Virus record (IMG/VR): IMGVR_UViG_3300020472_002167
Span: 1-27,336 of that record
DNA: 27,336 nt
DNA from: a virus
Direction: 5' to 3' (one strand)
Under the pieces are notes generated by a model. It ran no database searches. It was not told where the DNA came from and worked only from the letters and a program-made list of their open reading frames with translations. A program made the position numbers and the translations under genes. Below are positions 3,872 through 22,150 of the stretch, piece by piece; the stretch's first letter is position 1; each line of letters starts with the position of its first letter.

Positions 3872-6800
3872 ATGGCTGAGTTTAGACTTGGAAGAGTAAA
3901 ATTCAACTGGACAGGTAATTGGACTCCAGCAAAGTCCTACCTCATTGACGATATCGCCAAGTTTGGTGGTAATACTTACGTGGCGACCGCAAACCACACG
4001 TCAACGGCCAGTACATCGGATTTTTACGCAAACGATTCAGGAAACTGGAATATCCACATCGAGGGCCTTGAACAAAAGGGTCAGTGGGTAACTTCCACCT
4101 ATTATCGTATCAACGATTTGGTGACATTCGGTAACGTAGTTTACCGTGTTACTGCTGCACATACTTCAGAAGGAACCTTCATCGATAAGACGAAGGTTGT
4201 CGAGTATGTTGCGGGATTCAAATCCGAGGGGGACTGGTTAAACGGTACGGAGTATCAAGCAGGTGACGTTGTTAACTACAACGGATCTTCTTATGTTGCT
4301 CTTACAACTTCTCTCGCTGGATACAACCCTCCACAAAACTTAGGACTTTCTACAGATCCTAACGCAAAATGGAGTATATTGTCAGACGGTCTTGCTGGTG
4401 CCGCCATAACATATACAGAAGGAACTTATTACAGAGGTGACCTAACTCAGTACGGTGGTAACATTTACCGTCATAAGATTGGTGTCACAACTAACGTATC
4501 TCCACTTCAGGTCGGTTTAGGAACGATTGCTCCCGAATCTTGGACTGGTACTGATGTATGGGATCTTTTAGTTAAAGGATTTAACTTTGTAGGTAGTTTC
4601 TCAACTACATACACCTATCATCCAGGCCACCTTGCAAGATATGGATCTGATTCATACCTATCGGTTGGTTCATCTCACATAAACGTAATTCCTACTGCTG
4701 GAATTGGAACGTTCTGGGAAGTACTTGCTCAGGGTGATTCTGGTGCTGCTCTTAACACCAAGGGTGACATTCTAAGTTACAGTGGTGGTAATGTAAGGAT
4801 CGGTATCGGTTCTACAGGTTATGCTCTTGCAGTTCAGTCAGATGGATTGCCAGGATATGAGATTGTAGGTAACCAAACAAGAATTTACTATGTTGACTCC
4901 GAGGATGGAGTTGACTCAAACAATGGTCTTGCACCTAACTTGGCGTTTAAGACTATTAAACAGGCTTGCGTTGCTGCTCGTCCTAAGACTCCTGTTACAG
5001 GACTTGATTACACCTATCAAACTGGTGTTACTACTCTTACGGCGCCTGGTCACGGACTACAAAACACTGGTACGTTCGTTCAGTTAGCTGGACTTGAACT
5101 TGAGTGTTTATCAGGTGGTAACGTCTTCAACGTACTGAGTATGGTTTATAACAAGGCCGTTGGTCTTGCAACCGTTACTGCTATTGGTCTTGGTGGCGCT
5201 CCAGAAGTTGGAATCGGCACATACATCAGAATACGGAACATGAAGGTTCAGTATACTGGTTCTGCTCAATTCGCTCACCAATTCCAGAGTTCATTAGCTG
5301 ATTCAGTTATATCTGGTGGTAACTACGCTCACACATTTGTAAGTTGTGCAACTAACGGTGTTCAAATTGTTGGTGGTTCTAACGTAACACCTTCTAATGC
5401 TACTTACGATCCTGCAAATGGTAACTTAGTATTGACCCTTTCTGGTCACTCCTTATCAACTTCTGATAAGATTACCATTACGGATAACGCATTAACCTTC
5501 ACCTGTACGATGAACGGTAATGCAAATAACCACACATATCCTCGTGTAACTGACCCAACTCGTGGTCAACAACTGAATATCACAGGAACAACAACTAATA
5601 CTATTACAGTTAACGTTGGTGCTTCTCCTATAGTCAACTTCACACCAACTGCTGCAACATATAACCAAGTTACTGGTGATATGACGCTTACCATTGGTAC
5701 TCATACGTTGACTGCTGGTACTTCAATCAAGATGGCTAACAGTGGTATTACCTTCCGTTGTGCAATGGACGGATATACTACAGATCACGCTTATCCACGT
5801 AATACTGACCCTAAGTATAATACTTCAATTCCAATTACGGCAACAAGTACTAATACTATCACTATTAACGTTGGTGCTGCATCTGCAAACACAACTATTA
5901 CAGGTCTGTTCCCTGCTGTACATACACAAGGAACATATCAGTTCCCAGTACAGGCTGTTCCCGATGCGAACTCTGTTACACTTAACGTTGGTGTTTCAAC
6001 AGTTGATTACACTTACGTTCAGGAAGGAACTGCATTTGTTGGTCTAACAACAACTACATATCCAAGTATTGTTTCTAAGTCTTACTTCGAGGTTCTTGAA
6101 GTTCCTAACGGAGACGAGATTAAGATTAACGCTGGTATAACAACTCAGGCACATAGTTACGTTCAAGGTGGTCTAATGACTGACTTGACACCTGCTATCC
6201 TGAAACTATCTGCATCGCAGTTCTATGAGCAACTTCCAATTGTTGTTCCTCCTTACACTGCTATCGTAGGTAACGCACTTAGAGGTTCACAGGTTCTGCC
6301 TAAGGTTGGTACATCTGACGATGGTACTACACCTAATAACAGATCACAGATGTTCCAGATGTCTGACTCTACAACGATTCAGGCGATCTCCATGAAGGGT
6401 ATGTTAGGATTCCATTATGATCCTAATGCTCCTTGGGTACTTGACAATACAAACGTCAGGACTGGTATTGGTACAACTGCTGCTGGTGTATTCATCGCAT
6501 TTAACCCCAATTCACCAATTAACGATAAGTCACCTTACGTTAAGGACTGTACTGCTTTCTCAGACAATGCTTCTGAGTTATCACCTGCAGAATTCGGTGG
6601 TGCTGCGGTCGGTGTACTCGCTGACGGTGGATTGCACAAAGAAGGTGCAAAATCAATGGTGTTCGACGCTTTCACGCACGTTGCTTCTGACGGTGCTGGA
6701 TACCTACTTGACAAGAGTGCAATCGCTGAGATTGTCTCCTGCTTCACATACTATGCCCGTTGGGGATACTACTCAGGTGGTGGATCAAGAATCCGTGCTG

Positions 6801-8293
6801 TTGGTGGTAACAACTCCTACGGTGACTACGGTGTAATTTCTTCTGGATTCTCCTCTGAAGAGACTCCAAGAACCGCAAGAATCTTCGGTGATCTTCTTTC
6901 AGTTCAGAGTGCTACTAAGGCTGGTACAGTCTCAGTTGGTGCTACAATGTTCGGACAAACATCTAAGGCAACTGCATGGATGTTGAACGATCAGATTGCT
7001 TCTGATAAGATTTACTTCAAATATCAGGCTGGATACGGTAATGTTGGTCTTGGAACCACTGGATTCGTAGACGGTGAGATTGTATGGTTCGGTGCTGGTG
7101 CTGAAGGAAGTGCTGGTGTAGGTTCAATCACAGTCGGTACTGCTGCTTCTTCCACAACTGGACAGAAGGGAGGTATCCTTGAGGTTGATAATACTTCAGG
7201 AACACTACTTGTCGGTGACTCCATCGGATTAAGTACAACACTTTACGGTGCAGACGATAGATTCTATATTATTAACTCTCTAACAAACGTTGCTACTGCA
7301 AACACTTACTACGAGTGGAAGGCAGGATCAACCGCAGGCGTTGCCGTTACATTCCAAAATCGTGCTACTCTGACAATTTCGCCAGAGAAGACAATCGGTA
7401 CATGGGATACACGTAACTCAGTTGCCGCTGGTTCGACAATGGTTGTTAGAACACTGTTCTCACAGGTACGACTAACAGGACACGACTTCCTCGCAGTTGG
7501 TACTGGTAATAAGACTGAAACTAACTATCCTAACGTTGACCTCGCTGGAGTTATTCAGGGTAACGAGACTAACGTATACGGGCCTGGTAAGGTGTTCTTC
7601 GTATCTACCGACCAAGGTGGTAACTTCCGAGTTGGTGAATTCTTCTCGGTTGACCAGTTAACTGGACGTGCAACCTTGGATGCCTCCGCTTTCAACCTGT
7701 CTGGTTTGACAGAATTGAGACTGGGTGCAATCGGTGGTCAGATTGGTGAGTCTATTAGTGAATTCTCTGCCGACCAAACAATGGCAGGTAACTCTAACAG
7801 TGCTTGTCCAACTGAGTACGCAGTTAAGGGATTCCTAACCCGCGGCGCAATGGGTACTAAGGCGATGACACCTCCAGTAGGTACAACCGCTCAAAGACCT
7901 GGCGGCGTTGATGATGAGTTCCAAACAGGTTGTATGAGATTCAACTCTGAATTAGGTGCTCTTGAGTACTACAATGGTTCTTCTTGGACACAACCAGGCA
8001 AACAGACCTACAGTACAATCTCAGGTGCAACTAACGTTCTTGCTTCTAACATCTACTTTGTTAACACAACAGGTGGTCCTATAACCGCAACATTACCTGC
8101 ATCTCCTGACCTTGGAGATACAATTAGGTTCTTCGACGTTGCTAAGACTTTCGATTCTAACGCATTGACAGTCGCACGTAACGGAAAACCAATTCAAGGT
8201 GATACTGCAGACTTATCAGTTTCCACAGAGGGTGCCGCATTTGAACTTTCCTACTCAGGTGCAACTTATGGATGGAGAATCTTCACCATCTAA
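3872..8293 (+). CDS. Large tail-fibre-like structural protein, 1473 residues
   Basis: A strong AGGAG (3862-3866) precedes the ATG. The N-terminal 260 residues carry about five short repeats of the type W-x(5)-Y-x(3)-D-x-x-x-[FY]-G-x-x-[VI]-Y-x-[AV], for example GNWTPAKSYLIDDIAKFGGN and GDWLNGTEYQAGDVVNYNGS. They resemble small chitin/carbohydrate-binding (CBM5/12-like) modules common in phage fibres. About residue 340, IYYVDSEDGVDSNNG followed by AFKTIKQAC looks like the entry to a right-handed beta-helix (pectin-lyase-like) region. Two 85-residue repeats occupy about residues 506-675. Near residue 1340 there is a QRPGGVDDEF, then FNSELGALEYYNGSSW segment typical of fibre tips, followed by a C-terminal domain resembling that of the 2977-3435 product. 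A host-contact fibre role is inferred; no enzyme motif is evident. Confidence 0.85.
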   Translation: MAEFRLGRVKFNWTGNWTPAKSYLIDDIAKFGGNTYVATANHTSTASTSDFYANDSGNWNIHIEGLEQKGQWVTSTYYRINDLVTFGNVVYRVTAAHTSEGTFIDKTKVVEYVAGFKSEGDWLNGTEYQAGDVVNYNGSSYVALTTSLAGYNPPQNLGLSTDPNAKWSILSDGLAGAAITYTEGTYYRGDLTQYGGNIYRHKIGVTTNVSPLQVGLGTIAPESWTGTDVWDLLVKGFNFVGSFSTTYTYHPGHLARYGSDSYLSVGSSHINVIPTAGIGTFWEVLAQGDSGAALNTKGDILSYSGGNVRIGIGSTGYALAVQSDGLPGYEIVGNQTRIYYVDSEDGVDSNNGLAPNLAFKTIKQACVAARPKTPVTGLDYTYQTGVTTLTAPGHGLQNTGTFVQLAGLELECLSGGNVFNVLSMVYNKAVGLATVTAIGLGGAPEVGIGTYIRIRNMKVQYTGSAQFAHQFQSSLADSVISGGNYAHTFVSCATNGVQIVGGSNVTPSNATYDPANGNLVLTLSGHSLSTSDKITITDNALTFTCTMNGNANNHTYPRVTDPTRGQQLNITGTTTNTITVNVGASPIVNFTPTAATYNQVTGDMTLTIGTHTLTAGTSIKMANSGITFRCAMDGYTTDHAYPRNTDPKYNTSIPITATSTNTITINVGAASANTTITGLFPAVHTQGTYQFPVQAVPDANSVTLNVGVSTVDYTYVQEGTAFVGLTTTTYPSIVSKSYFEVLEVPNGDEIKINAGITTQAHSYVQGGLMTDLTPAILKLSASQFYEQLPIVVPPYTAIVGNALRGSQVLPKVGTSDDGTTPNNRSQMFQMSDSTTIQAISMKGMLGFHYDPNAPWVLDNTNVRTGIGTTAAGVFIAFNPNSPINDKSPYVKDCTAFSDNASELSPAEFGGAAVGVLADGGLHKEGAKSMVFDAFTHVASDGAGYLLDKSAIAEIVSCFTYYARWGYYSGGGSRIRAVGGNNSYGDYGVISSGFSSEETPRTARIFGDLLSVQSATKAGTVSVGATMFGQTSKATAWMLNDQIASDKIYFKYQAGYGNVGLGTTGFVDGEIVWFGAGAEGSAGVGSITVGTAASSTTGQKGGILEVDNTSGTLLVGDSIGLSTTLYGADDRFYIINSLTNVATANTYYEWKAGSTAGVAVTFQNRATLTISPEKTIGTWDTRNSVAAGSTMVVRTLFSQVRLTGHDFLAVGTGNKTETNYPNVDLAGVIQGNETNVYGPGKVFFVSTDQGGNFRVGEFFSVDQLTGRATLDASAFNLSGLTELRLGAIGGQIGESISEFSADQTMAGNSNSACPTEYAVKGFLTRGAMGTKAMTPPVGTTAQRPGGVDDEFQTGCMRFNSELGALEYYNGSSWTQPGKQTYSTISGATNVLASNIYFVNTTGGPITATLPASPDLGDTIRFFDVAKTFDSNALTVARNGKPIQGDTADLSVSTEGAAFELSYSGATYGWRIFTI
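5387..5896 (+). repeat. Two tandem 85-residue repeats inside the large fibre gene
   Basis: The encoded protein repeats with a 255-base period. Each copy has A-T-Y, then L-T-[LI] and H-[ST]-L, then F-[TR]-C-x-M-[ND]-G, H-[TA]-YPR-x-TDP, and ends T-I-T-[VI]-NVG. Equivalent Tyr codons sit at 5405 and 5660. The copies have diverged at DNA level, so the duplication is old or under selection for the fold. Confidence 0.75.
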
Positions 8294-8348: not shown

Positions 8349-9131
8349 ATGGCAAATTATAGATCATATCGAAAAGTAGTTGCTGATCAAGTTCCAAGTA
8401 ACGAGATCAGCGTAGGAAAGCTCGTGCCTGGATCGGGTCCTTCATATTGTGTAAAACACATTTATGGAACTCCAAACTCATGTACTCCAGGCTGTTGTTG
8501 CAACTGGCAAGTTCCTTCTGGTACAACCAGAATAACATGGGAACTGTGGGGTGCAGGTGGAAATGGACATGGACATTGTTCATGTAACAGATGTCAGCAC
8601 TTTAGAGGTGCTGCAGGTGGAACTTATAATACTAAGACTATCTCTACAACAGGTGGTTGTAACTACTCTGTATGTGCAGGTGGTGTTTATAGGTGTTGCT
8701 CAAGAGAGTGTAACGGTTGCACAGGTTGTTCATCCTATGTGAATGGTCATAACCTAAGTAACTTCTGCGCCAGAGGTGGTGCAAGGGGTTGTGCAAACGC
8801 TGACTGGTCAGTTCAGTGTACTTCTACTTGGTACTGCTGTGTTGCGCCAGGTGCTTGGGGCGGAGATTTCGCAATGGCTCCTCACCAGACAGGTTGGTCT
8901 GGTCACTGGGATTGTCAGTGCGGTCCGTCAATTACACAAGAATGTATGTCTGGTGCTCCATTCTTAGGAATGGGTTCTGAACATAGATCTGTTCACTGCT
9001 GGTCACGTTGCGGTTGTTGGACTGCTCCTTATGCGACTGGTGGACAGGGTGCTATCAACCAATACTGTGGTCGCTGCTGCGGTCAGGGTGGCCAGGGAGG
9101 ATCTGGTATCGTTAGAATTACTTATTTGTAA
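8349..9131 (+). CDS. Cysteine-rich, glycine-rich fibre-like protein, copy 1
   Basis: The product is 260 residues with about 29 cysteines. The N-terminus (YRSYRKVVADQV) matches short N-termini of cyanophage fibre-like proteins. Next come CTPGCCCNW, then VPSGTTRITWELWGAGGNG, which is the usual entry to glycine-rich fibre domains. CSCNRC, CCSRECNGCTGC and GCSSYVNGHNLSNFCA (residues 126-141) follow, then RCGCW and a glycine-rich ending GGQGGSGIVRITYL. I infer an extracellular fibre or tail-tip adhesin in which a glycine-rich fold has been loaded with cysteines. Whether these form disulfides or bind metal cannot be read from sequence. An AAGG at 8336-8339 is a weak ribosome site. First of three tandem paralogues. 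Confidence 0.8.
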   Translation: MANYRSYRKVVADQVPSNEISVGKLVPGSGPSYCVKHIYGTPNSCTPGCCCNWQVPSGTTRITWELWGAGGNGHGHCSCNRCQHFRGAAGGTYNTKTISTTGGCNYSVCAGGVYRCCSRECNGCTGCSSYVNGHNLSNFCARGGARGCANADWSVQCTSTWYCCVAPGAWGGDFAMAPHQTGWSGHWDCQCGPSITQECMSGAPFLGMGSEHRSVHCWSRCGCWTAPYATGGQGAINQYCGRCCGQGGQGGSGIVRITYL

Positions 9132-9142
9132 TCGGAGAACAA

Positions 9143-9940
9143 ATGGCCAGTTATTCATCTTACAAAAAAATTAATGGAGATACCTTTGCAAGTGGTATCT
9201 TAGGAGCTGATAAGTTCAGTTCTTCTCCGACTTCCACATATGGTGTTAAGTGGGTATATGGAACCATGTGTAGGTGCTCGCCAGGTTGCTGTTGCAACTG
9301 GACAGTACCAACGGGAGTAACAAAGCTTTGGATCCAATTATGGGGTTCAGGTGGTAATGGTGCAGGCGCTTGTTCCTGCAACAGATGTCACCACTATGGT
9401 GCATCAGGCGGTGGATACTATAACAGTCAAATAGTTTCCTCAAATGCTGGGTGTACTTATTCGGTATGTGCTGGTGGAGTTTATCCATGTCTCTCAAGAG
9501 AGTGTTACGGATGTCAAGGATGTTCGTCGTATGTAAATGGACATAACCTAAGTAACTTCTGTGCTCAAGGTGGTAGACGCGGAGACGCGAATACTTCTTG
9601 GTCTACTGAGTGTACTTCAACATGGTCATGTTGTGCGGCCCCTACTCAATGGGGTGGACAAATGGCACTTGGTAACCATGCTCATGCATGGACTGCTTCT
9701 CGTTATGATACTTATAGAGGATGGTGTCACTGCTATAATCAGGGCATAACACCAACGTCTGCTCCATTGATCGGAACCTTTGTACAACAATCTACACGAG
9801 GATGTTGGATCCGTTGTGGTTGCTGGGTTGTTCCTTATGGTAATGGTGGAATGAACGCTATGTCAAATTATTGTGGCTCAGGCCATTGTGGACAAGGTGG
9901 TACTGGTGGTGGCGGATTAGTTAAAATTACATACTTCTAA
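9143..9940 (+). CDS. Cysteine-rich, glycine-rich fibre-like protein, copy 2
   Basis: The product is 265 residues with about 25 cysteines and is collinear with copies 1 and 3. It has CSPGCCCNW with VPTGVTKL, CSCNRC, LSRECYGCQGC and the invariant GCSSYVNGHNLSNFCA, again starting at residue 126. RCGCW and a GQGGTGGGGLVKITYF ending follow. It is the most diverged of the three: Cys is lost in the Y-P-C-L-S-R segment where the others have CCSREC. The start is supported by GGAG at 9134-9137. It begins 11 bases after copy 1, so it is probably on the same transcript. A structural adhesin role is inferred. Confidence 0.8.
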   Translation: MASYSSYKKINGDTFASGILGADKFSSSPTSTYGVKWVYGTMCRCSPGCCCNWTVPTGVTKLWIQLWGSGGNGAGACSCNRCHHYGASGGGYYNSQIVSSNAGCTYSVCAGGVYPCLSRECYGCQGCSSYVNGHNLSNFCAQGGRRGDANTSWSTECTSTWSCCAAPTQWGGQMALGNHAHAWTASRYDTYRGWCHCYNQGITPTSAPLIGTFVQQSTRGCWIRCGCWVVPYGNGGMNAMSNYCGSGHCGQGGTGGGGLVKITYF

Positions 9941-9954
9941 CAGCAGGAGAAACG

Positions 9955-10746
9955 ATGGCTACGTATTCATCATACAAAAAAATTAAGAACGACCAGATAG
10001 TCGATGCGACGATTCCATCTTCTGCTCTTGCTTCTGGTGCGTTCGCAAACTGGTGTGTCAAGTGGGTTTATGGTACACCTAACTCCTGTACTCCTGGCTG
10101 TTGCTGCGGATGGCAGGTTCCTTCAGGTGTTCAAAGAATTAACTTCGAGTTATGGGGTGCTGGAGGAAACGGACACGGATCATGTACTTGTTCCAGATGT
10201 CATAACTGGTTTGGTGCAGGTGGAGGATTCTATAATACAAAGACTATTGGAACAGTTGCGGGTTGCACTTACACAGTTTGTGCAGGTGGTGTATACCGTT
10301 GTTGTTCACGAGAATGTACAGGATGTTACGGATGTTCATCCTACGTTAACGGACATAACCTCAGTAATTTCTGTGCCTTAGGTGGTTCAAGAGGTTGTGC
10401 AACTAACTCTTGGCCAAGTTCATGTTACTCTCAGTTCGAGAGGTGTTGTGTACAACCTGGCGCATGGGGTGGAGATTTTGCAATGGGTAACCATGCAGGA
10501 ACCTCATATAAACAGGACGGATGGGACTGCCATTGTTACTATAACAAGGGTCATCCTACAGGTGCTCCATTCATCGGAACGTTGGGCGTTAGTTACGCTG
10601 TTAGACGTTGTTGGATGCGTTGTGGTTGTTGGACTGTTCCTTACGGTCACGGTGGACAGGGTGCTATTTCTACCTATTGTGGAAGTGGTCACTGTGGACA
10701 GGGTGGACAAGGAGGATCGGGTCTCGTTAAGATCACATTTGTTTAA
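9955..10746 (+). CDS. Cysteine-rich, glycine-rich fibre-like protein, copy 3
   Basis: The product is 263 residues with about 27 cysteines. Same architecture as its two upstream neighbours: YSSYKKIKNDQI at the N-terminus, CTPGCCCGW, CTCSRC, CCSRECTGCYGC, GCSSYVNGHNLSNFCA at residue 126, RCGCW, and a GGQGGSGLVKITFV end. It is closer to copy 1 than to copy 2 in most cysteine positions. AGGAGA at 9945-9950 supports the ATG. The gene is followed directly by a strong rho-independent terminator, so the triplet forms the end of a transcription unit. Role inferred as for the other copies. Confidence 0.8.
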   Translation: MATYSSYKKIKNDQIVDATIPSSALASGAFANWCVKWVYGTPNSCTPGCCCGWQVPSGVQRINFELWGAGGNGHGSCTCSRCHNWFGAGGGFYNTKTIGTVAGCTYTVCAGGVYRCCSRECTGCYGCSSYVNGHNLSNFCALGGSRGCATNSWPSSCYSQFERCCVQPGAWGGDFAMGNHAGTSYKQDGWDCHCYYNKGHPTGAPFIGTLGVSYAVRRCWMRCGCWTVPYGHGGQGAISTYCGSGHCGQGGQGGSGLVKITFV

Positions 10747-10841: not shown

Positions 10842-11603
10842 ATGGCTACCAAAATTATTTCCCACGCATGGCAGTTAAAATTGCCAAATAACTTCCTTGT
10901 GGATCACTCTTTCAGTGACGGCAAGGATAGAAGTTGTACTTACGACGGACCAGACAAGATTTATTTACAGTTAGATGCTAACGGTAAAGAGGCATATGGA
11001 CCTCTTACTGAAGATGACATCGCTGATGGTCGTCCAAAACCTGCTGACGTTGTTGAATGGTTTGAAGTAGATTGTGCTGCAAGTCACACAAATACTTTAA
11101 TCTGTCAATTACGTGCTCCAGTTATAGATGAGAAGGAAGAAGACAGAGGTACAGGGGAAGTTTGGCATCCAGGCTCACCAGACATGACTGCAGATGGATA
11201 TCCAAGATTCTCTTATTCTACACCATTAATGGCTGATGATATCTATGATATCGACAGCATTAAGAAAAATGGAGGTGGTACTCTTGACGTTACTGCTTAT
11301 ACTGTTAAGGAGAAACTTAATGGTCATGATGCAGACCTAACTTGGGATAACATCAGAAGTAAGAGAGATACTACACTTGAACAGTGTGATGGTAAAGTAT
11401 CAGAAGACATGCCTACATCAATTAAAGATGAGTGGAAAGTTTATCGTCAGAAGTTAAGGGATTTCCCTAAGACTATGGCTGATGCTGGAGTTCATCCTAA
11501 CATAGCTCAAATGATGATGCCTGATGTTCCTCAGCACGTTGATCCTCCTGCGGCTAATGAGCCTAATGCAGATGGTACTCAACCTTGGGCCCCACCATTC
11601 TGA
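10842..11603 (+). CDS. Virion-region protein with tail assembly chaperone-like C-terminal domain
   Basis: The product is 253 residues. Residues about 167-183 (TWDNIRSKRDTTLEQCD) and 198-209 (WKVYRQKLRDFP) match the W-x-x-[IV]-R-x-x-R-(D/N) ... W-x-x-Y-R-x-x-L-R-D pattern of the phage tail assembly chaperone domain common in T4-like cyanophages and other tailed phages. The N-terminal 140 residues are not familiar. The C-terminus is Met/Pro-rich and ends in NADGTQPWAPPF. It forms a single-gene unit with its own late promoter and terminator. Placed after tail-tip genes, it may help assemble or attach those fibres (inference). Confidence 0.7.
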   Translation: MATKIISHAWQLKLPNNFLVDHSFSDGKDRSCTYDGPDKIYLQLDANGKEAYGPLTEDDIADGRPKPADVVEWFEVDCAASHTNTLICQLRAPVIDEKEEDRGTGEVWHPGSPDMTADGYPRFSYSTPLMADDIYDIDSIKKNGGGTLDVTAYTVKEKLNGHDADLTWDNIRSKRDTTLEQCDGKVSEDMPTSIKDEWKVYRQKLRDFPKTMADAGVHPNIAQMMMPDVPQHVDPPAANEPNADGTQPWAPPF

Positions 11604-11663: not shown

Positions 11664-12323
11664 ATGTTTGAAGTAAATTATCAATCAGACGCACACGTTC
11701 ATAAACTTTACGATCATTATAAGTATAATGATGTTGGAATGGTCTGGAGAAAAGTTTTTATAGTAGATAATTTCTATTTAAATCCAAATGAGGTTCGAGA
11801 ATACGCTTTATCGTGTGAACCAAAAGAGGAAAAAAGTTATACTGGAGATTTGATAGGTAAAAGAGTATGGGAACAACAAATAGAAATGCAAAAAAATCTT
11901 AAACCATTGTTTAAGGGATTGTGTACTCTGGATCAATGGACAAATATTGAATGGGATGAAGATGATTTCAATACAAAATGGGATGATATGAAGTTTATGG
12001 TCAATGTTAGTTACGGATCAGACTTCGCTAAGAGACAAGATGTATATAATGGAGATGTAGTTACATATCATAAAGACAATACAAAATATAAATGGGCTGC
12101 TTTAGTATATTTGAATAAGGATGAAGAATGTGATGGAGGTACAAAGTTCTATCCATTCAAAGAAGATTTGCCTATGTTTAAACCAAGTGAAAGAGATGCC
12201 TTTACATGTGAGATGAAGTATAATAGAATGGTATTATATGAATCAAGACATACCCACGGAGCTATATTAAATAGGGATATGTTTCAAACAAAACCCCGTC
12301 TAACACAGGTGTTTTTTATGTGA
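11664..12323 (+). CDS. DUF6445-like putative Fe(II)/2-oxoglutarate-type oxygenase
   Basis: The product is 219 residues. FIVDNFYLNPNEVREYAL (residues 32-49) matches the family opening 'hydrophobic-D-[DN]-F-x-x-x-P-x-x-V-R'. Then come YHKDN (135-139, a possible H-x-D pair), ALVYLNKDEECDGGTKFYP (146-164), NRMVLYESRHTHG (187-199) and the ending R-L-T-Q-V-F-F-M. This layout is that of DUF6445, a cupin-fold family resembling prolyl hydroxylases; the enzymatic activity is not established to my knowledge. Such genes recur beside tryptophan halogenases in bacteria, as here. No Shine-Dalgarno is visible and the gene follows a terminator. A related gene lies at 22147-22875 on the other strand. Confidence 0.65.
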   Translation: MFEVNYQSDAHVHKLYDHYKYNDVGMVWRKVFIVDNFYLNPNEVREYALSCEPKEEKSYTGDLIGKRVWEQQIEMQKNLKPLFKGLCTLDQWTNIEWDEDDFNTKWDDMKFMVNVSYGSDFAKRQDVYNGDVVTYHKDNTKYKWAALVYLNKDEECDGGTKFYPFKEDLPMFKPSERDAFTCEMKYNRMVLYESRHTHGAILNRDMFQTKPRLTQVFFM

Positions 12324-12380: not shown

Positions 12381-13646
12381 ATGCGATCGAAGGCCTTTTT
12401 CATAAATGGTGGAGCCGGAAGAGTTATATGCTCCATACCTGCATTTGAAAAACATGTAGAAGAACATCCCGAAGATGATTTTATTATCATTTGCGAGGGT
12501 GGAACAGATTTTTTTAAAGGACATCCTACATTAGATGGTAGGGCTTATGACAACTGGCATAAGAATGTCTTCCAAGAACATATTAAACACAGAGATTGTG
12601 TAAGTCCAGAACCATATAGAGTTTGGCATTACTATAATCAGAAGTGTACTCTTGCACAGGCATATGATATTGAAATTAATGGTTTAGATGAACCAAGAGA
12701 ACTACCTAAACCAACACTTAATCTTAATAAGACTGAGGTTATTAATGGATATAATGTCGTACAGGAAGTTAAATCAGTAACTAAAAAGGATAAGATTCTT
12801 GTCATTCAACCGTTTGGTCGCGGGGTTGAACAGTATGGAGAGTTTATTGCAGATCCTACCTCAAGAAGTTTATCATTAACAAATACTGTTGATATCATCA
12901 ATAATCTTAAAAAGGATTATGGTGTTATTGTTATGAGTGAAATTCACTTCCCAGTAGAAGAGGATGAAGAGAAGTCTCGATATAAAATTGCAAGACCTCA
13001 AATTCAAGATATGCGTCAATGGGCTGCTGTAATTGATGTTGCAGATCACTTCTTAGGATGTGATAGTATGGGTCAACATATGGCAAGAGCTCTTGATGGA
13101 ACTGCAACTGTAATTGTTGGTTCAACATATCCAGAGAATATAAGTTATCCAGGCCATAAAGATTTTGATATCTATGATGTTGGTCTTGATAAGAGAGAAT
13201 ATGCTCCTATTAGAATATCTCAAGACGAAAGAGTTGACAGATATAATGATGAAGCATTAGAAATGACTCAATCACAAGTCAAAGAAGTTTGTGATCTTGT
13301 TAGAAAGAGGATGGGTAAATCCAGAACATTCACTGGTACATACGTTCCTGTTCAACAAACAACACAATCATGTGATACAAGTGGTAATATGCAGCCTCAG
13401 CCTGTTGCTCCTACAAATGCACAGAGACCTGATATTAATCAGTTGCAAATGCAACAACCAAATTCTGGCCAAGCTCCATCAATGAATATGGTTCAAGGTA
13501 GAGTTAAACCACAATCACCAACTCCACACTTCACTTTGGATAAACCAAAGTCTATGAAACCTTCTAAAGGATTTAAGCAGGAAGTGAAAAGTTTATTAAA
13601 GACAGATAAACCTTCTATTACTATAGAGAAAAAGAGTGAGGCTTGA
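12381..13646 (+). CDS. GT9 / heptosyltransferase-like glycosyltransferase with disordered C-terminal tail
   Basis: The product is 421 residues. FINGGAGRVICSIPAFEKH near the N-terminus resembles the GT-B N-domain start of ADP-heptose:LPS heptosyltransferases (GT9: G-D-x-x-x-x-x-P-A). Residues 138-147 contain ILVIQPFGRG, in place of the family's second-domain entry strand. Residues 221-259 (ADHFLGCDSMGQHMARALDG, then VIVGSTYPENISYPGH) match the GT9 signature D-x-x-[IV]-[GS]-x-D-[ST]-[GM]-x-x-H-x-A-x-A-L, then G-x-T-x-P. The last 100 residues are Gln/Pro/Lys-rich low-complexity sequence, unusual for this family. GAGGTG sits seven bases before the ATG. First gene of a ten-gene overlapping operon that also encodes ADP-heptose enzymes, which supports a heptosyl donor. 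Identity to a specific transferase is uncertain. Confidence 0.6.
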   Translation: MRSKAFFINGGAGRVICSIPAFEKHVEEHPEDDFIIICEGGTDFFKGHPTLDGRAYDNWHKNVFQEHIKHRDCVSPEPYRVWHYYNQKCTLAQAYDIEINGLDEPRELPKPTLNLNKTEVINGYNVVQEVKSVTKKDKILVIQPFGRGVEQYGEFIADPTSRSLSLTNTVDIINNLKKDYGVIVMSEIHFPVEEDEEKSRYKIARPQIQDMRQWAAVIDVADHFLGCDSMGQHMARALDGTATVIVGSTYPENISYPGHKDFDIYDVGLDKREYAPIRISQDERVDRYNDEALEMTQSQVKEVCDLVRKRMGKSRTFTGTYVPVQQTTQSCDTSGNMQPQPVAPTNAQRPDINQLQMQQPNSGQAPSMNMVQGRVKPQSPTPHFTLDKPKSMKPSKGFKQEVKSLLKTDKPSITIEKKSEA

Positions 13647-13648
13647 TA

Positions 13649-15463
13649 ATGACACAATGGATTGCAGCAATCGCCAGAGGTCATAACTCTGGTGTATGTC
13701 TTCTTGCGGATGGCGAATTAGTTTTTGCAATAGAAGAAGAAAGACTTTCAAGAAAAAAATATGATGGTGGGCCTTATGCTTCTATGGTCAAGATTCTTGA
13801 CTATACTGATAGGTTAGATTATCTTGCGATTGCACATACGCAACCATTAAATGAAGCTGGAACTGTTGATTTCACAGGAGAACCAGTCTATGTTGGTTTA
13901 GCCAGAAAGTTAGGTCTCATTGATAGAAATCAGGACATTTATAATCATCCTCAAGTTACTGATTTAAGTCATATCCATCATAAGTTACATGCTTCATGTG
14001 CTTTCTTTAGATCTGGATTTGAATCTGCTGTTGCTGTCATTGTAGATGGCGCAGGAACTTATATTCCTATGCAGATTGATGGTGAACAGGAGATGACATG
14101 GGAATTGGAAAGCATGTTTACATGCAAGTATCCAGATGAGTTCAATACCATTTACAAACATCAAGGAGGACGAGGACCTTGGGCTTCTGGTAGTTTACCT
14201 AATTTTGGTGCAGGAAGAGAAGGTGAAAAAGATAATACTTATGAACTTGTCTTAGATGATTCTGCTGGTATAGTTAAAACATATGAGGCTGCAACACAGT
14301 ATTGTGGATGGGCTCCTATTGAAGCTGGTAAGACAATGGGATTATTCCCATATGGAAAGAATAGTTATAAGTTTCCTGATCTATTCACAGATTATGAAGG
14401 GATTGCTGCATGGAAAACTGCCAATAGAGATTTAGTTGTACCAACTTATCCTAATGGTGCTGTTATTAACCAAGGTAGATTCCCATACTTACATACTCCA
14501 GAGGAATATACTAAAGGAGATGATAGACCAGACATAACTAAATTAGATAATCGTAGAGACATTGCTTATGCAGTCCAGACAGAATCTCAACAGATGGTTC
14601 TGGATCTTATTCGTAAAGCAGTTGACATGACAGGTAATACAAATGTAGTATTATCAGGTGGATATGGATTAAATTGCGTTGCTAATTATTGGTATCTTGA
14701 TCAATTAAAAGGTGAAGGTATTAATTTATATGTGGAACCAGTCAGTAATGATGCTGGAACTGCAATTGGAGCAGCTTACTTACAACACCAATTGGTGACG
14801 AAAGATACGACTGTTAAACCACATTTACATGATTTGTATACTGGTCCTTCATACGAATATGATAGGGAGTATATTCAAGCACTTGCAGAACATTATGGTG
14901 CATCAAGAATCTTTGAATCTAACCATAAGGATGCAGTAGAACTTATTACTAATAAGAATATTGTTGCATTGTTCCAAGGTAAATCAGAAGCAGGCCCTCG
15001 TGCATTAGGTAACAGGTCTATTCTCTATGATGCTCGTGATCCAAATGGAAAAGATTTCGTTAACACAGTAAAACGTCGTGAATACTTTAGACCATTTGCA
15101 GGTTCTATTTTAAAAGAACATGTACATGAGTGGTTTGATCTTCGTGGTATGGATGAAACTCCGTTCATGATGTATGCAGTTAACTGTCAAGAAGGTATTC
15201 AAGAAAGGATACCTGCAATCATTCATGTGGATGGTACGTGTAGGATTCAAACTGTTACCGAAGATGTTAATAAAAACTATTACGATATTATTCAAGAGTA
15301 TTATAATCAAACAGATTGTCCAATTATATTCAACACATCCTTTAACCTTGGCGGAGAACCTCTTGTAGAGACTCTGGATGACGCTCTGAGGACTCTTGCG
15401 AACAGTTTGATAGAATACCTCTATTTGCCAGAATACGGTCTTATGATCGAGGTGAAGAACTGA
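13649..15463 (+). CDS. Carbamoyltransferase (NodU/CmcH/TobZ family)
   Basis: The product is 604 residues, the full family length. It transfers carbamoyl from carbamoyl phosphate through a carbamoyl-adenylate to a hydroxyl of a sugar or antibiotic. Diagnostic motifs are in order: EEERLSRKK (29-37), HHKLHA (110-115, metal-binding region of the Kae1-like domain), VDGAGTY (132-138), LSGGYGLNCVAN (335-346), SNDAGTAIGAA (366-376), GPRALGNRSIL (449-459), KRREYFRPFAG (475-485), HVDGTCRIQTV (526-536) and NTSFNLGGEPLV (562-573). I chose the ATG at 13649, preceded by GAGG at 13638-13641, over a TTG at 13643. It begins two bases after the glycosyltransferase gene and overlaps the halogenase gene (TGATG). 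The substrate is unknown; a heptose is plausible from context. Confidence 0.9.
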   Translation: MTQWIAAIARGHNSGVCLLADGELVFAIEEERLSRKKYDGGPYASMVKILDYTDRLDYLAIAHTQPLNEAGTVDFTGEPVYVGLARKLGLIDRNQDIYNHPQVTDLSHIHHKLHASCAFFRSGFESAVAVIVDGAGTYIPMQIDGEQEMTWELESMFTCKYPDEFNTIYKHQGGRGPWASGSLPNFGAGREGEKDNTYELVLDDSAGIVKTYEAATQYCGWAPIEAGKTMGLFPYGKNSYKFPDLFTDYEGIAAWKTANRDLVVPTYPNGAVINQGRFPYLHTPEEYTKGDDRPDITKLDNRRDIAYAVQTESQQMVLDLIRKAVDMTGNTNVVLSGGYGLNCVANYWYLDQLKGEGINLYVEPVSNDAGTAIGAAYLQHQLVTKDTTVKPHLHDLYTGPSYEYDREYIQALAEHYGASRIFESNHKDAVELITNKNIVALFQGKSEAGPRALGNRSILYDARDPNGKDFVNTVKRREYFRPFAGSILKEHVHEWFDLRGMDETPFMMYAVNCQEGIQERIPAIIHVDGTCRIQTVTEDVNKNYYDIIQEYYNQTDCPIIFNTSFNLGGEPLVETLDDALRTLANSLIEYLYLPEYGLMIEVKN

Positions 15464-16881: not shown

Positions 16882-18401
16882 AAAGAGTAGAACATCTTAC
16901 TATTGTTGGTGGTGGTAGTGCTGGTTGGTTATGTGCTGCTTACTTTGCCAGAAGATCTAATTTAACTAAGGCTTCTCCTCAAATGGCTTGGGGTGATAAA
17001 CTTAAGGTAACTATTATTGATAAAGAAGTTCCTGATCGTATTGGTGTAGGTGAAGCAACTATATTAGCCTTTGGTAACTTCATGGGTGAGATGGGATTTG
17101 ATGATGATTATTGGCAAGAAAAGGTTGATGCAATTCATAAAGGTGCTATAGTATTTGAAGGGTGGACTACACCAGAACATGAGATGTGGCATCCCTTTGG
17201 ATTCACTGATATCACTTATAATATTAATGAAGCTGGTAATTATGATGTAGCTCCTCTATGGGATATATGGAGTGTATATAAAGATAAGTTTGATCTTAAA
17301 GAGTCTCAAGCTTTATACACTACTGCTATGGCAAATAGAGTAGAACCCAATAACATGAATGTCTATGCTAACCATTTGGATGCAGGTAAGTTAGCAGAGT
17401 TTTTAAAAGAGGAATCTATAAATCATCCATGTCTTACTCATATCGAATCAGATGTTACAGAAGTACATTGGCATGACAATGGAGAAGTTGATTATCTGAA
17501 ACTAAAGGACGGTAGAGAACATAGATCCGATCTCTATGTTGATTGTACAGGATTTAAGAGGTTACTTAGTAGAGATCCTAAGAAGGATATGGTTGATTTG
17601 AGTGATAGATTGTTTACTAATACTGCTATTGCTGGACCTATCCAATATCAAAATAGAGATATTGAGATGCATCCTTGGACTCATGCAAAGACAGTTGATT
17701 GTGGTTGGATATGGGTCACACCAATAACATCAAGGATTGGTTCTGGATTAGTCTTTAATAGGGACATTACTGATCCAGAGCATGCTAAGGATGTATTCGT
17801 TGATTATTGGGATAATAGAATTAAGAAAGAAGATCTAAGAACTTTGAAATGGGATCCAGTTAAAGTAAAGAATGGTTGGGTTGGTAATGTAGTATCAATA
17901 GGACTATCTGCAGGGTTTATAGAACCACTTGAGAGTACTGGACTTGCTTTAATAGTTAGAGCTATAGAGACTTTAGAAGAGAATATAAGAGGTGATTGGT
18001 ATGATGAGAATGAAATTGCTCTCTTCAATGCAAGAGTGAATGGTGCTTATGAAAACTCCATAGATTTTGTTAATATGCATTATGGATTTACCCAGAGAAC
18101 TGAACCTTTCTGGCAACACGTAAGAGATACATATCAAAAATCTGAACTCTATAAGTTCTGGGAATCTCAAATGAAAGATCCTGACCATACTACCAGACAG
18201 ACACAGAAGTTTGGATTCTTTGGTGGACATAATTTTGCAGTATGTATGGCTCAATGGAATCCAGATTTATGTGTTAGAAAGACATACTTTGATCATTGTA
18301 AAGATAATTTGGAAAAGAATATGCAACACTTCTATAAGCAGTTGCAAGAGAATATAGACACATCAGTACCACTTAAAGAAAAACTTCCTTGGTTAAAATG
18401 A
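16878..18401 (+). CDS. Flavin-dependent halogenase 2 (tryptophan halogenase family)
   Basis: The product is 507 residues and clearly homologous to the preceding gene but well diverged, so this is not a recent duplication. Hallmarks are GGGSAGW (11-17), GVGEATILAFG (56-66), IHKGAIVFEGW with catalytic K88, WIWVTP (277-282), RIGSGLVFNRDITDP shared with halogenase 1, and IGLSAGFIEPLESTG with E352/S353. It has an insertion near residues 28-40 and a longer C-terminus. The ATG overlaps the previous stop (ATGA at 16878-16881), indicating translational coupling. Two tandem enzymes may act on different positions or substrates, or work as a heteromer; the sequence does not say which. No flavin reductase is visible. 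Confidence 0.9.
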   Translation: MKRVEHLTIVGGGSAGWLCAAYFARRSNLTKASPQMAWGDKLKVTIIDKEVPDRIGVGEATILAFGNFMGEMGFDDDYWQEKVDAIHKGAIVFEGWTTPEHEMWHPFGFTDITYNINEAGNYDVAPLWDIWSVYKDKFDLKESQALYTTAMANRVEPNNMNVYANHLDAGKLAEFLKEESINHPCLTHIESDVTEVHWHDNGEVDYLKLKDGREHRSDLYVDCTGFKRLLSRDPKKDMVDLSDRLFTNTAIAGPIQYQNRDIEMHPWTHAKTVDCGWIWVTPITSRIGSGLVFNRDITDPEHAKDVFVDYWDNRIKKEDLRTLKWDPVKVKNGWVGNVVSIGLSAGFIEPLESTGLALIVRAIETLEENIRGDWYDENEIALFNARVNGAYENSIDFVNMHYGFTQRTEPFWQHVRDTYQKSELYKFWESQMKDPDHTTRQTQKFGFFGGHNFAVCMAQWNPDLCVRKTYFDHCKDNLEKNMQHFYKQLQENIDTSVPLKEKLPWLK

Positions 18402-18796
18402 AAACAGTATTTGTTAATGGAACATTTGATATTCTTCACCCAGGCCACATGCAACTATTCAAGGTTGCAAGGTCTTTAGGTGATAGAGTTATCTGTGCAA
18501 CTGATAGTGATCAGAAGATAAGAGAAGATAAACCAGATACGGGTAAACCGATCAATAATCTTCCTTTTAGGATTACTATGTTAGAATCTATCAAATACAT
18601 AGATACAGTCTTGTGGTTTAATACTCGACAAGAACTATCTGATTTGATACAGATGTATCGTCCTGATATTTTATTATTAGGTGATGATTGGAGAAATGGA
18701 GTTGTGATTGGTCAAGAGTTTGCTAAAGAGGTTAGATTCTTTCCAAGAATACACATGTATTCAAGTACAAAAGTAATAGAAAAGATACGGTCATGA
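18398..18796 (+). CDS. rfaE2: D-glycero-D-manno-heptose 1-phosphate adenylyltransferase (HldE C-terminal domain, stand-alone)
   Basis: The product is 132 residues. VNGTFDILHPGHMQLF (6-21) contains the nucleotidyltransferase HxGH motif (HPGH, 14-17), followed by VARSLGDRVI and TDSDQKIREDK. The ending YSSTKVIEKI corresponds to the S-T-T-x-x-I-x-x-I motif of this family. It matches RfaE2/HldE-C better than TagD-type cytidylyltransferases, chiefly in GKPINNLPFRITMLESI. In the pathway it makes ADP-D-glycero-D-manno-heptose from heptose 1-phosphate and ATP. In E. coli it is fused behind the kinase; here the two are separate genes in reverse order, overlapping by four bases. I use the ATG at 18398, overlapping the halogenase stop (ATGA), rather than a TTG at 18389. 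Confidence 0.8.
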   Translation: MKTVFVNGTFDILHPGHMQLFKVARSLGDRVICATDSDQKIREDKPDTGKPINNLPFRITMLESIKYIDTVLWFNTRQELSDLIQMYRPDILLLGDDWRNGVVIGQEFAKEVRFFPRIHMYSSTKVIEKIRS

Positions 18797-19554
18797 AACA
18801 AGTATTAGTTATTGGAGATTCTTGTGATGACGTTTATATTTTTGGTCATTGTAAACGGTTAAGTCCAGAGTATCCTATTCCAGTATTAGATAAAGTAAAT
18901 AATGAGATTCATCCTGGCATGGCAGCTAATGTTGATGCAAATCTCAATGCTCTTGGAATAGCAACAAATCTGTTGACACAGAGAGAAAGGATAACTAAAA
19001 CAAGATTTGTAGATATCAATACTAAGCAACAGTTATTGAGAATGGATACCACACCAAAGGTTACTCCTTTGACTGGTTCAGAAGTCAAGATGGCAATGAT
19101 TCATACGTCTTATGATGCTTTAGTAATATCAGACTATGACAAGGGTTTCATTGGATATCAAGAATTAATAGTTCTTTGTGAGAATTTTCCAGGCCCAATC
19201 TTTGTAGATACAAAGAAAACAAAATTGTTTCAATTAGATAATGTATTCTGGAAGATTAATGAGAAAGAATTTAATGCCTTAGATAAAGAAAAAAGACCAA
19301 ATGAGACTCATCTTATTGTTACTCTTGGATCTAAAGGTGTACGATGGGGTGGTATAATATATCCAGCAAAACCTGTTACTGTTTTTGATGTTTGTGGTGC
19401 AGGGGACACTTTCTTAGCTGTCCTTGTATATGAATTCTTAAAGGATAATGATATGAAGAAAGCTGTAGATGTTGCTAATAGAGGTGCTGCAATCACAGTA
19501 CAACATCCTGGCACATATAAACTAACTCAAAATGATCTTGAATCATTGTTCTGA
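18793..19554 (+). CDS. rfaE1: D-glycero-D-manno-heptose 7-phosphate kinase (HldE N-terminal domain, PfkB family)
   Basis: The product is 253 residues, shorter than the roughly 315-residue kinase half of E. coli HldE. PfkB features: a first signature GMAANVDANLNALG (42-55), RFVDINTKQQLLRMD (71-85, strongly like the RfaE1 segment T-K-x-R-x-x-x-x-x-Q-Q-x-x-R-x-D), ISDYDKG (112-118), and the catalytic second signature DVCGAGDTF (199-207) with Asp205 as the likely base. It phosphorylates heptose 7-phosphate at C1. Translationally coupled to the adenylyltransferase upstream (ATGA) and to the next gene downstream (TGATG). The reduced length suggests loss of peripheral elements rather than truncation, since both signatures and the C-terminal helices are present. 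Confidence 0.8.
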   Translation: MKQVLVIGDSCDDVYIFGHCKRLSPEYPIPVLDKVNNEIHPGMAANVDANLNALGIATNLLTQRERITKTRFVDINTKQQLLRMDTTPKVTPLTGSEVKMAMIHTSYDALVISDYDKGFIGYQELIVLCENFPGPIFVDTKKTKLFQLDNVFWKINEKEFNALDKEKRPNETHLIVTLGSKGVRWGGIIYPAKPVTVFDVCGAGDTFLAVLVYEFLKDNDMKKAVDVANRGAAITVQHPGTYKLTQNDLESLF

Positions 19555-20090
19555 TGTACCCCGTTACTTTTCATAATGTATTAGAACCTAAGAAATTCCT
19601 CTCATTGAATGAAGAGTTTGAGGAGGGTTGGTGTCTTAATAATTCATCAGGGCTTGATGGTGATAATGTTACATGGGGTTTTAAAGATCCAAGCGATACC
19701 TTGATTTTTTATGATGTTGCTACTATAATCAAATTAAAGATACAAAAGGTTATTAAAAGACCTCTTAGATTCTTTGTAATGCATGTTAACGGACAGACTA
19801 CAGGACAAGGCAATCTTATTCATACTGATTTTGAATGTCCTTGGGTGTGGTCTTTTGTATTGTTTACTCATATGGATTGGGATATTCAATGGGGTGGAGA
19901 ATTTGTCTGTACAGAGCCAAATACTAAAGAACATAAGTATGTTCCATGTCTATCAAATACTGGAGTTTTAATTCCTGCCCATTGGGAACATTATGGACAA
20001 TCTCCTAATGTATTCACCAGTAGACTAAGAACTTCTCTTAGGTTCAGTTATTGTGACGATGATAAATGGGAGTTGTTTAATGCCAATTAA
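19554..20090 (+). CDS. Putative 2-oxoglutarate/Fe(II)-dependent oxygenase
   Basis: The product is 178 residues. A double-stranded beta-helix pattern is visible: LRFFVMHVNGQTTGQ (71-85), IHTDFE (89-94, the H-x-D iron ligands H90 and D92), WGGEFVCTEPN (113-123), NTGVLIPAHWEHYGQSP (135-151, distal His probably H146), and RTSLRFSYC (159-167) carrying an Arg for 2-oxoglutarate. This is the prolyl-hydroxylase-like layout common in cyanophages. The substrate is unknown. It sits between the heptose kinase and the HAD phosphatase, so a sugar intermediate or a protein are both possible. The start overlaps the kinase stop. Confidence 0.7.
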   Translation: MYPVTFHNVLEPKKFLSLNEEFEEGWCLNNSSGLDGDNVTWGFKDPSDTLIFYDVATIIKLKIQKVIKRPLRFFVMHVNGQTTGQGNLIHTDFECPWVWSFVLFTHMDWDIQWGGEFVCTEPNTKEHKYVPCLSNTGVLIPAHWEHYGQSPNVFTSRLRTSLRFSYCDDDKWELFNAN

Positions 20091-20792: not shown

Positions 20793-21369
20793 TTGGCCGA
20801 CAAAGTTAACTGATCTTATTGTTGAGTTACCTCTCATTGAGGATGCAACTTGTGATGCGATGGTTGCTTGGTTTCATGAGAATGTAGATAGACAAGTTGT
20901 AGGTGCAGTAGGTGGTACAGGAGAACAGACAGTTAATACTGAATGTTGTAAAGCAACTGATATTGTTGTTAAACCATCAGATAAAATATTTCATTGGATG
21001 TCACAGATATCGCACTATGCATATAGTGAGTATCTAAACAGAGCGCCTGGACCTACTACAGATATTGTCTTTAATGACTTTGCTATAAGATCATACCAAC
21101 CTAATGATGGATACTTTGTTGAGCATACAGATCAACATGCAGGTGGTAGTGTTAATAGGGTGTTTGCTATAATAATGTATTTAAACACCGTAGATGAAGG
21201 TGGAGAAACAGAGTTCCCCTACTATGATGTAAAGATTAAACCAGAGAAAGGTAAGGTATTATTATTTCCTGGCAACTATTTGTTCCCACATAAAGGCAAC
21301 AAACCTATGTCGGGTGTAAAGTATATTGCTACGTCTTGGGTTGAGTTTCAAGAAATTCCTTCACAGTAA
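20785..21369 (+). CDS. 2-oxoglutarate/Fe(II)-dependent prolyl-4-hydroxylase-like oxygenase
   Basis: The product is about 194 residues. The C-terminal half is a clear P4H-type domain: FAIRSYQPNDGYFVEHTDQH (99-118) with iron ligands H114 and D116, IMYLNTVDEGGETEFP (130-145), IKPEKGKVLLFPGNYLFPHKG (centred on 151-171) with distal His169, and GVKYIATSW (177-185) with Lys179 for 2-oxoglutarate. Such enzymes hydroxylate proline or other residues of proteins, or small molecules; the target is unknown. There is no ATG near the expected start. GTG 20785 is chosen, with TTG 20779 as an alternative; either overlaps the cupin gene. The last gene of the + strand operon, its 3' end overlaps the convergent HldD-type gene by 41 bases. 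Confidence 0.8.
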   Translation: MTDWPTKLTDLIVELPLIEDATCDAMVAWFHENVDRQVVGAVGGTGEQTVNTECCKATDIVVKPSDKIFHWMSQISHYAYSEYLNRAPGPTTDIVFNDFAIRSYQPNDGYFVEHTDQHAGGSVNRVFAIIMYLNTVDEGGETEFPYYDVKIKPEKGKVLLFPGNYLFPHKGNKPMSGVKYIATSWVEFQEIPSQ

Positions 21370-22150
21370 TAAAGTCATAATCAACCCACTTCATATCTGC
21401 ACAAGTATATTTTTGGTACTTTCCTTTTAAGTGATCTGGGAATGGTATCATTTTTATCTTGACTTCTTCTTTGTCTGCTACTGCTTTTGCAACATCATAG
21501 AAAGATATTGGGTTACCTGTTCCTATATCATATATTCCACTGGGAGCATCATTGTTCATAACAATGTTGACTATATCAGTTACACATACAAAGTCTCTTA
21601 AGAACTGATCAGATCCTTCAAAGAGTTTTATTTCTCCAGTTTCACGAGCTTGTTGTGTGAACTTTGATACTGGACTTGCTTGATCTACTTTAAGTTTATC
21701 TTCTTCTCCTGTTCCATATACATTGAAGTATCTAAACCCCTGTATATACCTGAACTTATCAAGATTATCTTGTACGTAGTAATCTATTATAAGTTTTGAT
21801 ATTGCATATTGATTTAATGGATTTATCTTCTTAGTTCTTTTGGTTTGATTACCATATACTGATGCTGATGATGCATACTTAACTGGTATCTGATGTTCTA
21901 TTGCATGGTAGAGTATCCATGCTGTGAAGTCTTGATTGTAATGTGAGATCTTCATCCAGTTTGGTTCTACCGTGGATGACATTGCACCATTGTGTATGAT
22001 TAAAGTGACTCTTTCCCAATCATCAAACTTAGCAAGCCATTTCCAACAGTCATCTTTATCAATACAGATGACATGTTCTTTCATCTCTTCTTCAACATAT
22101 CGTTTAAAATGAGAACCGATGAATCCTTTATGTCCTGTTATTAATATCAT
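21329..22150 (-). CDS. hldD: ADP-L-glycero-D-manno-heptose 6-epimerase-like NAD(P)-dependent epimerase
   Basis: The product is 273 residues, an extended SDR. GHKGFIGSHF (6-15) is the Rossmann loop; ASSASVYG (93-100) and Y115-x3-K119 are the catalytic elements. FRYFNVYGTGE (139-149), LFEGSDQFLRDFV (176-188), IYDIGTGNPISF (206-217) and IPFPDHLKGKYQKYT (235-249) are close to HldD-specific segments, particularly the last. It converts ADP-D-glycero- to ADP-L-glycero-D-manno-heptose. It is somewhat shorter than E. coli HldD (310). The minus-strand ATG overlaps the stop of the DUF6445-like gene. Other nucleotide-sugar epimerases remain possible, but the neighbouring split HldE supports this call. 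Confidence 0.8.
   Translation of the reverse strand: MILITGHKGFIGSHFKRYVEEEMKEHVICIDKDDCWKWLAKFDDWERVTLIIHNGAMSSTVEPNWMKISHYNQDFTAWILYHAIEHQIPVKYASSASVYGNQTKRTKKINPLNQYAISKLIIDYYVQDNLDKFRYIQGFRYFNVYGTGEEDKLKVDQASPVSKFTQQARETGEIKLFEGSDQFLRDFVCVTDIVNIVMNNDAPSGIYDIGTGNPISFYDVAKAVADKEEVKIKMIPFPDHLKGKYQKYTCADMKWVDYDFITVKEFLETQPKT

Follow-up and report, generated by a model that had tools for sequence, protein, structure and literature searches.

Among described virion proteins, the closest to those considered here is the fibre protein gp24 of cyanophage Pam3, a trimer that has a TNF-like domain and a tip of polyglycine and is served by a chaperone, gp25 (7YPX, 7YFW; PMC9608196); among enzymes, it is TibC, a heptosyltransferase that hyperglycosylates adhesins on serine (PMC4358343). 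The DNA analysed, called the window below, is the 27,336-nucleotide stretch of a marine cyanophage at positions 1 to 27,336 of IMG/VR record IMGVR_UViG_3300020472_002167. Three tandem genes in it (p1, p2 and p3) probably encode adhesins of the fibre tip whose fold is known and whose cysteine content is extreme, a reading that follows from the predicted fold and the gene neighbourhood. Downstream of them lie genes for a glycosyltransferase (GT) and a carbamoyltransferase, and our principal result is that this GT, paired with the carbamoyltransferase, tracks cysteine richness itself, including that of proteins unrelated to p1–p3. We take p1–p3 to be a novel form of an established fold, and put forward the cysteine-linked enzyme system as a hypothesis. 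The argument turns on the following genes:

8349..9131, plus strand: p1, cysteine-rich probable fibre-tip protein 1 (260 residues, 29 cysteines, 11.2%; phrog_4205, E 2e-54)
9143..9940, plus strand: p2, cysteine-rich probable fibre-tip protein 2 (265 residues, 25 cysteines, 9.4%; phrog_4205)
9955..10746, plus strand: p3, cysteine-rich probable fibre-tip protein 3 (263 residues, 27 cysteines, 10.3%; AlphaFold2 model matching Pam3 gp24; PF21722 score at the cut-off)
10842..11603, plus strand: putative fibre assembly chaperone (253 residues; Phage_tail_APC domain at residues 170–214, PF16778, E 1.1e-9)
12381-13646, plus strand: GT9-like glycosyltransferase (PF01075 in homologues; co-occurrence with cysteine-rich phage proteins)
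13643..15463, plus strand: carbamoyltransferase of the NodU/TobZ family (PF16861, E 5e-58; PF02543, E 8e-24)

The first-pass annotation had drawn attention to a cysteine at about every tenth residue, to the collinearity of the three proteins around a segment shared at residue 126, and to conserved cysteine clusters, and all three points hold: besides the counts listed above, residue 126 is the first of GCSSYVNGHNLSNFCA in p1, p2 and p3 alike, and GCCC, C-x-C-x-x-C, C-x-x-C-x-x-C and RCGCW are all present. With about 10% cysteine, the three exceed normal phage proteins by an order of magnitude, and base composition alone would give about 4%, as against the 9–11% found. Elsewhere in the window, the main gene products examined contain 0–2.8%, the exception being one open reading frame (ORF) of 543 residues with 5.3% that lies out of frame within another gene. 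Because 20 cysteine columns are at least 95% conserved across 192 relatives, and 15 still are when the set is widened to 261 proteins, the enrichment is a product of selection and not of chance.

The link between the enzymes and cysteine is seen from several directions. Of 50,697 phage records, 23 hold a homologue of the GT with 39% identity or more, and 21 of these carry the cysteine-rich family of p1–p3 (by tblastn); the remaining two, MH319759 and MH319766, encode other cysteine-rich proteins (758 residues with 73 cysteines and 290 with 31; 282 with 26). Close GT homologues in this collection are restricted to phages with cysteine-rich genes, and the same 23 records hold the carbamoyltransferases nearest to that of the window (43% identity or more). 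When loci were gathered by their cysteine-rich genes, the GT was detected in 111 of the 115 with 3.5 kb or more of downstream sequence. Of the four without it, three are false negatives of the ORF filter, which brings the count to 114 of 115. When they were gathered with the enzyme alone as the query, and those with at least 4 kb upstream were counted, a cysteine-rich ORF (at least 150 residues and at least 6% cysteine) stood in all 53 loci of close GT homologues. Among distant homologues, 65 of 80 loci contain an ORF with at least 5% cysteine and five more have one at 4.8–5.0%, the mean for the other ORFs of these loci being 0.8%. Good flanks are available for 63 distant loci; 54 hold a cysteine-rich ORF, and in 45 of these no relationship between the ORF and the fibre family could be detected. 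GT-led loci include the carbamoyltransferase in 76 of 80 and 69 of 72 cases, the median distance from cysteine-rich ORF to GT is about 1 kb, and when GT lineages are defined at 70% identity, cysteine-led loci included, 75 of 79 clusters carry a cysteine-rich ORF.

The cysteine-rich ORFs of the GT loci form 28 BLAST clusters, among them a protein of 1397 residues with 148 cysteines. Seven large ones from distant loci gave no Pfam matches and weak PHROG matches in two cases, and two of the other cysteine-rich proteins have no relatives among the phage records. Several giant ORFs (894–1458 residues, 94–148 cysteines) lie beside the GT9/carbamoyltransferase pair:

L319, 5298-9491: giant cysteine-rich ORF
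L310, 4636-8805: giant cysteine-rich ORF
L292, 6312-9878: giant cysteine-rich ORF
L299, 2302-6678: giant cysteine-rich ORF
L301, 5394-8078: giant cysteine-rich ORF

At still lower similarity (25–29% identity), the GTs of Aeromonas phage HJ05 and Vibrio phage SBP1 have cysteine-enriched tail genes next door, and no carbamoyltransferase was found beside the GT in either. The HJ05 tail protein has 23 cysteines in 559 residues, mostly in the final 280, and that of SBP1 has 41 in 925; GT and tail gene together lie at 7303-9918 of L271 in HJ05 and at 8938-12522 of L272 in SBP1. The tail proteins of Vibrio phages D505 and K479 are mildly enriched, with 2.3–2.4% cysteine.

Control loci behave differently. 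Carbamoyltransferase loci that lack this GT contain a cysteine-rich ORF in 0 of 23 cases, and loci led by Syn9 gp33 do so in 1 of 23; a pooled Fisher test of the GT loci against these controls (1 of 46) gives 6e-20, the loci being not fully independent. To our knowledge, the association of a cysteine-rich protein with a GT9 enzyme and a carbamoyltransferase has not been described, our literature searches not having been aimed at it.

These comparisons bear on a reading that we consider rather improbable, in which the enzyme pair alters the surface of the host (perhaps to keep out a second infection by the same phage), the whole block moves as a host-range module, and cysteine richness is unrelated to the enzymes. 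The adjacency of fibre and sugar-enzyme genes would suit this, as would the lipopolysaccharide (LPS) gene clusters that were noted in cyanophages in 2010 and whose function was left open (PMC3037559). However, the link persists for unrelated cysteine-rich proteins in diverse phages, and it vanishes at the related carbamoyltransferase loci without this GT.

What we tentatively favour, at slightly less than an even chance, is that the GT/carbamoyltransferase pair modifies the p1–p3 fibre tips by glycosylating many of their cysteine thiols, the donor in this phage probably being ADP-heptose. The three genes would yield short TNF-like/glycine-rich receptor-binding tips, made with the help of a putative chaperone, and the tail fibres would probably bear them. 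During infection, the GT9-like enzyme would attach a sugar to many fibre cysteine thiols inside the cell, the carbamoyltransferase may then decorate the attached sugar, and the outcome would be a densely S-glycosylated adhesin. We infer the fibre as substrate, cysteine as acceptor, heptose as the sugar and the order of the steps. Since the GT follows cysteine content across unrelated proteins, the most economical reading is that cysteine matters to the enzyme, most directly as the acceptor, and the order of the genes (cysteine-rich fibre, chaperone, GT, carbamoyltransferase) is consistent with the fibre as the target. Glycocin S-glycosylation and the carbamoylation of cysteine by HypF are precedents for a sugar or a carbamoyl group on a cysteine thiol, although they involve other glycosyltransferase families and act on small peptides or on HypE, not on proteins of a virion.

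Profile matches place the GT family in GT9, that of the heptosyltransferases: 23 of 39 homologues match PF01075, with 1.8e-7 as the best value. The carbamoyltransferase has both the N- and the C-terminal Carbam_trans domains, as expected of the NodU/TobZ type, together with a weak, sub-threshold match to HypF_C_2. The ADP-heptose donor would probably come from three genes further downstream:

18389..18796, plus strand: cytidylyltransferase-like gene, resembling the HldE nucleotidyltransferase (PF01467, E 1e-17; relatives annotated heptose adenylyltransferase)
18793..19554, plus strand: PfkB-family gene, resembling the HldE kinase (PF00294, E 7e-17; distribution in phages)
21329..22150, minus strand: NAD-dependent epimerase (PF01370, E 2e-21; the S-CAM3 gene in the same place is annotated ADP-heptose-6-epimerase)

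It is possible that the two HldE-like genes and the epimerase supply ADP-heptose, the latter as an ADP-heptose 6-epimerase. Because marine Synechococcus LPS is without heptose (PMC4515613), these genes are not obviously there for the core of the host LPS. Nearby, the gene at 20053-20439 occupies the place of one annotated as phosphoheptose isomerase in relatives, and its sequence (CVDIDGTICTPT) is more like a HAD-type phosphatase.

Several observations weigh against the glycosylation proposal. That the GT acts on fibres, or on cysteine, is drawn from co-occurrence and gene order; the window's own GT copy gave no PF01075 match at E 0.01, and a search for a sequon around the cysteines gave none that was clear. 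The nearest functional precedent, TibC, acts on serine rather than cysteine (PMC4358343). If the proposal is right, the two systems are alike in having a dedicated heptosyltransferase that uses ADP-heptose to modify an adhesin (PMC4358343), but TibC is a dodecamer and needs a four-cysteine iron finger, whereas the sole near-invariant cysteine among 39 homologues of the window's GT is C227. Most distant GT loci yielded no heptose genes, which makes the donor uncertain; elsewhere it may differ or be host-derived. Four distant GT loci (L327, L333, L340 and L341) have no cysteine-rich ORF within reach, and these may reveal what else the GT does. Lastly, the near-invariance of many cysteines in the family suits structural disulfides at least equally well.

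This last point leads to the main rival explanation, that the tips are stapled by disulfides. Bonds within or between chains would replace a polyglycine lattice of the Pam3 type, probably forming after lysis, and the enzyme pair would be linked to the fibres in some other way, with the GT and carbamoyltransferase acting on another fibre residue or on something else. Disulfides are documented in the tail of phage Milano (PMC10811340) and in the attachment of the Pam3 fibre (PMC11821841), and the strong conservation of the cysteines would be explained, as would the way in which their positions move between subfamilies with the overall content staying high. Some variable cysteines also co-occur: 43 and 104 are both present in 89 cases and alone in 1 and 55, and 101 goes with 134. 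Nonetheless, pairs deduced from cysteine co-loss, suggestive at first sight, lose significance once corrected for the tree, co-variation in the larger set is driven mainly by one divergent clade, and the number of cysteines per protein is often odd. Moreover, disulfides offer no account of why a single GT family follows 28 BLAST clusters of cysteine-rich proteins, or of why such genes are missing at carbamoyltransferase loci without the GT. On balance we think disulfide stapling somewhat less probable than glycosylation, but the two roles are compatible, and some cysteines may pair while others carry a modification.

A metal site, in which C121-x2-C124-x2-C127 and C192-H193-C194 would bind zinc or iron and stabilize the tip, is a very improbable alternative. 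Both motifs are near-invariant within the close family, but they are not retained in the relatives from P-SSM2 and S-CAM1, which are similarly rich in cysteine; sequence searches of the PDB returned no real relative and no metal-site match, and by fold the model resembles fibre and tail-tip proteins of phages and ALK/LTK domains. The earlier suggestion that the cysteine clusters form disulfide ladders or a metal site stays a suggestion, co-variation of the cysteines being weak; disulfides remain the principal competitor of the glycosylation proposal, and a metal site or a surface-modification module is less likely.

Cysteine richness seems to have evolved more than once, in tail-region proteins that are unrelated to each other, among phages that share one enzyme family. 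A wider reading, held more tentatively than the proposal for p1–p3 itself, is that the GT9 enzyme and carbamoyltransferase of many aquatic phages S-glycosylate unrelated cysteine-rich tail-region proteins with up to 148 cysteines in a chain, so that a dense coat of thioglycosides would cover the virion. If the cysteines are indeed glycosylated, there would be protein S-glycosylation in viruses of oceans and lakes, made by a new family of thioglycoside-forming enzymes; we know of no protein S-glycosylation on such a scale. Some of the ‘LPS’ genes of cyanophages, to which no function had been assigned in 2010 (PMC3037559), would then acquire a role. If the cysteines form disulfides instead, the tips represent an unusual fibre-tip construction without polyglycine. 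Isolates exist (S-SSM7, P-SSM2, S-CAM1 and Sf-FS3), and hence the readings are directly testable.

It is informative to examine how closely p1–p3 resemble known fibre tips. The glycine-rich, fibre-like scaffold that had been proposed from the sequence is supported by PF21722 (Gly_rich_2) matches at E 0.01 or better in 65 of 123 family members (best 5e-9), with p3 scoring 24.1–24.7 bits against a cut-off of 24.3, and by the AlphaFold2 model of p3 (pLDDT 82.5), which presents a predicted TNF-like beta-sandwich with a loop-rich tip domain. The model matches Pam3 gp24 (7ypx) with a Z score of 16.6 over 212 residues, followed by the tail tip of mycobacteriophage Bxb1 (Z 11.5) and ALK/LTK glycine-rich domains (about 10), and it also resembles many viral glycine-rich and tail fibre proteins, Syn9 gp38 among them. 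Sequence-profile comparison alone did not relate the cysteine-rich family to Pam3 gp24. The Pam3 and window proteins have similar PF21722 scores (23.8 versus 23.6–24.1 bits), and both are followed by a chaperone, putative in the window. In other respects they differ: gp24 has 1 cysteine and 63 glycines, whereas p1–p3 have about 27 cysteines each; gp24 has a long N-terminal helical shaft, whereas p1–p3 have a short N-terminus; and gp24 is a homotrimer from one gene per phage, whereas the window has three paralogues. The polyglycine lattice of the Pam3 tip (GGGGxGG motifs, about 39% glycine) is absent from p1–p3, and because they contain 17–18% glycine overall and 9–11% cysteine, we place them in a divergent cysteine-rich branch of the fold rather than among canonical Pam3-type fibres.

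The small fibres of T4-like cyanophages, such as gp36 and gp38 of Syn9 (phrog_863), are likewise of the glycine-rich type and occupy the same slot after a long tail fibre, but they have 22–35% glycine and 2–8 cysteines, and neither the GT, the carbamoyltransferase nor heptose genes were found in loci led by Syn9 gp33. Within this group, gp36 (L164, 28855-29805) has 35% glycine and 8 cysteines, including CYGC and CSGC within polyglycine, and is a possible intermediate towards cysteine-rich tips. In the virion proteomics found in the literature, which concerns S-SM1, Syn9 and S-PM2, we met no coverage of these cysteine-rich proteins.

Relatives of the three genes are found in Synechococcus phages S-SSM7, S-SSM6a and Sf-FS3 and, more distantly, in P-SSM2/P-SSM5, S-CAM1 and S-CAM3; a scan of viral contigs gave 78 loci with the cysteine-rich family, and the five matches in bacterial genomes, every one in a metagenome-assembled genome, are read as mis-binned viral contigs. 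Where strong members of the family occur and 600 bp of flanking sequence is available at both ends, 95 of 96 loci have exactly three copies and one differs; removal of duplicates leaves 73 distinct triplets. A tree groups the copies largely by position (10 label changes for p1/p2/p3 versus 93 in shuffles), the divergences of p1, p2, p3 and the chaperone are tightly correlated (r 0.94–0.96), and the differences specific to each paralogue cluster at residues 185–217. A homologue of the C-terminus of the upstream fibre precedes 64 of the 73 triplets, and a homologue of the gene at 10842 follows 68. The upstream fibre, a possible carrier of the tips, is the remaining feature of this region:

3872..8293, plus strand: tail fibre of 1473 residues (phrog_9851, E 0; PF02839; CBM5/12-like N-terminal repeats)

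Orthology by position, constant copy number and correlated divergence would fit a 1:1:1 complex of p1, p2 and p3. Hence, of the first-pass view that tandem triplication points to a hetero-oligomeric tip, the triplication stands as real, conserved and fixed in order, whereas the hetero-oligomer is unproven, because relatives exist with two copies, with six, or with small chaperone-like genes between the cysteine-rich ones. Outside the strong clade the copy number varies, phages of the P-SSM2 type having two. L111 (741-6933) has six tandem cysteine-rich genes and then one chaperone-like gene, and L118 (4821-8386) has three, each followed by its own small gene, possibly a chaperone; in L118 the GT and carbamoyltransferase lie on the strand opposite to the cysteine-rich genes. 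A heterotrimer was therefore dropped as an established assembly, since the two-copy P-SSM2 types, L111 and L118 leave room for others.

The product of the gene at 10842..11603 gives a confident AlphaFold2 model (pLDDT 92) with a weak structural match to Pam3 gp25 (Z 2.8), so that, despite its Phage_tail_APC domain, we call it only a likely fibre chaperone. Between it and the GT, the gene at 11664-12323 carries the PHROG label ‘minor coat protein’, yet it has similarity to 2OG-Fe(II) oxygenases and DUF6445. Two neighbouring tryptophan halogenase genes (PF04820) follow the carbamoyltransferase in the same cluster, at 15463-18401.

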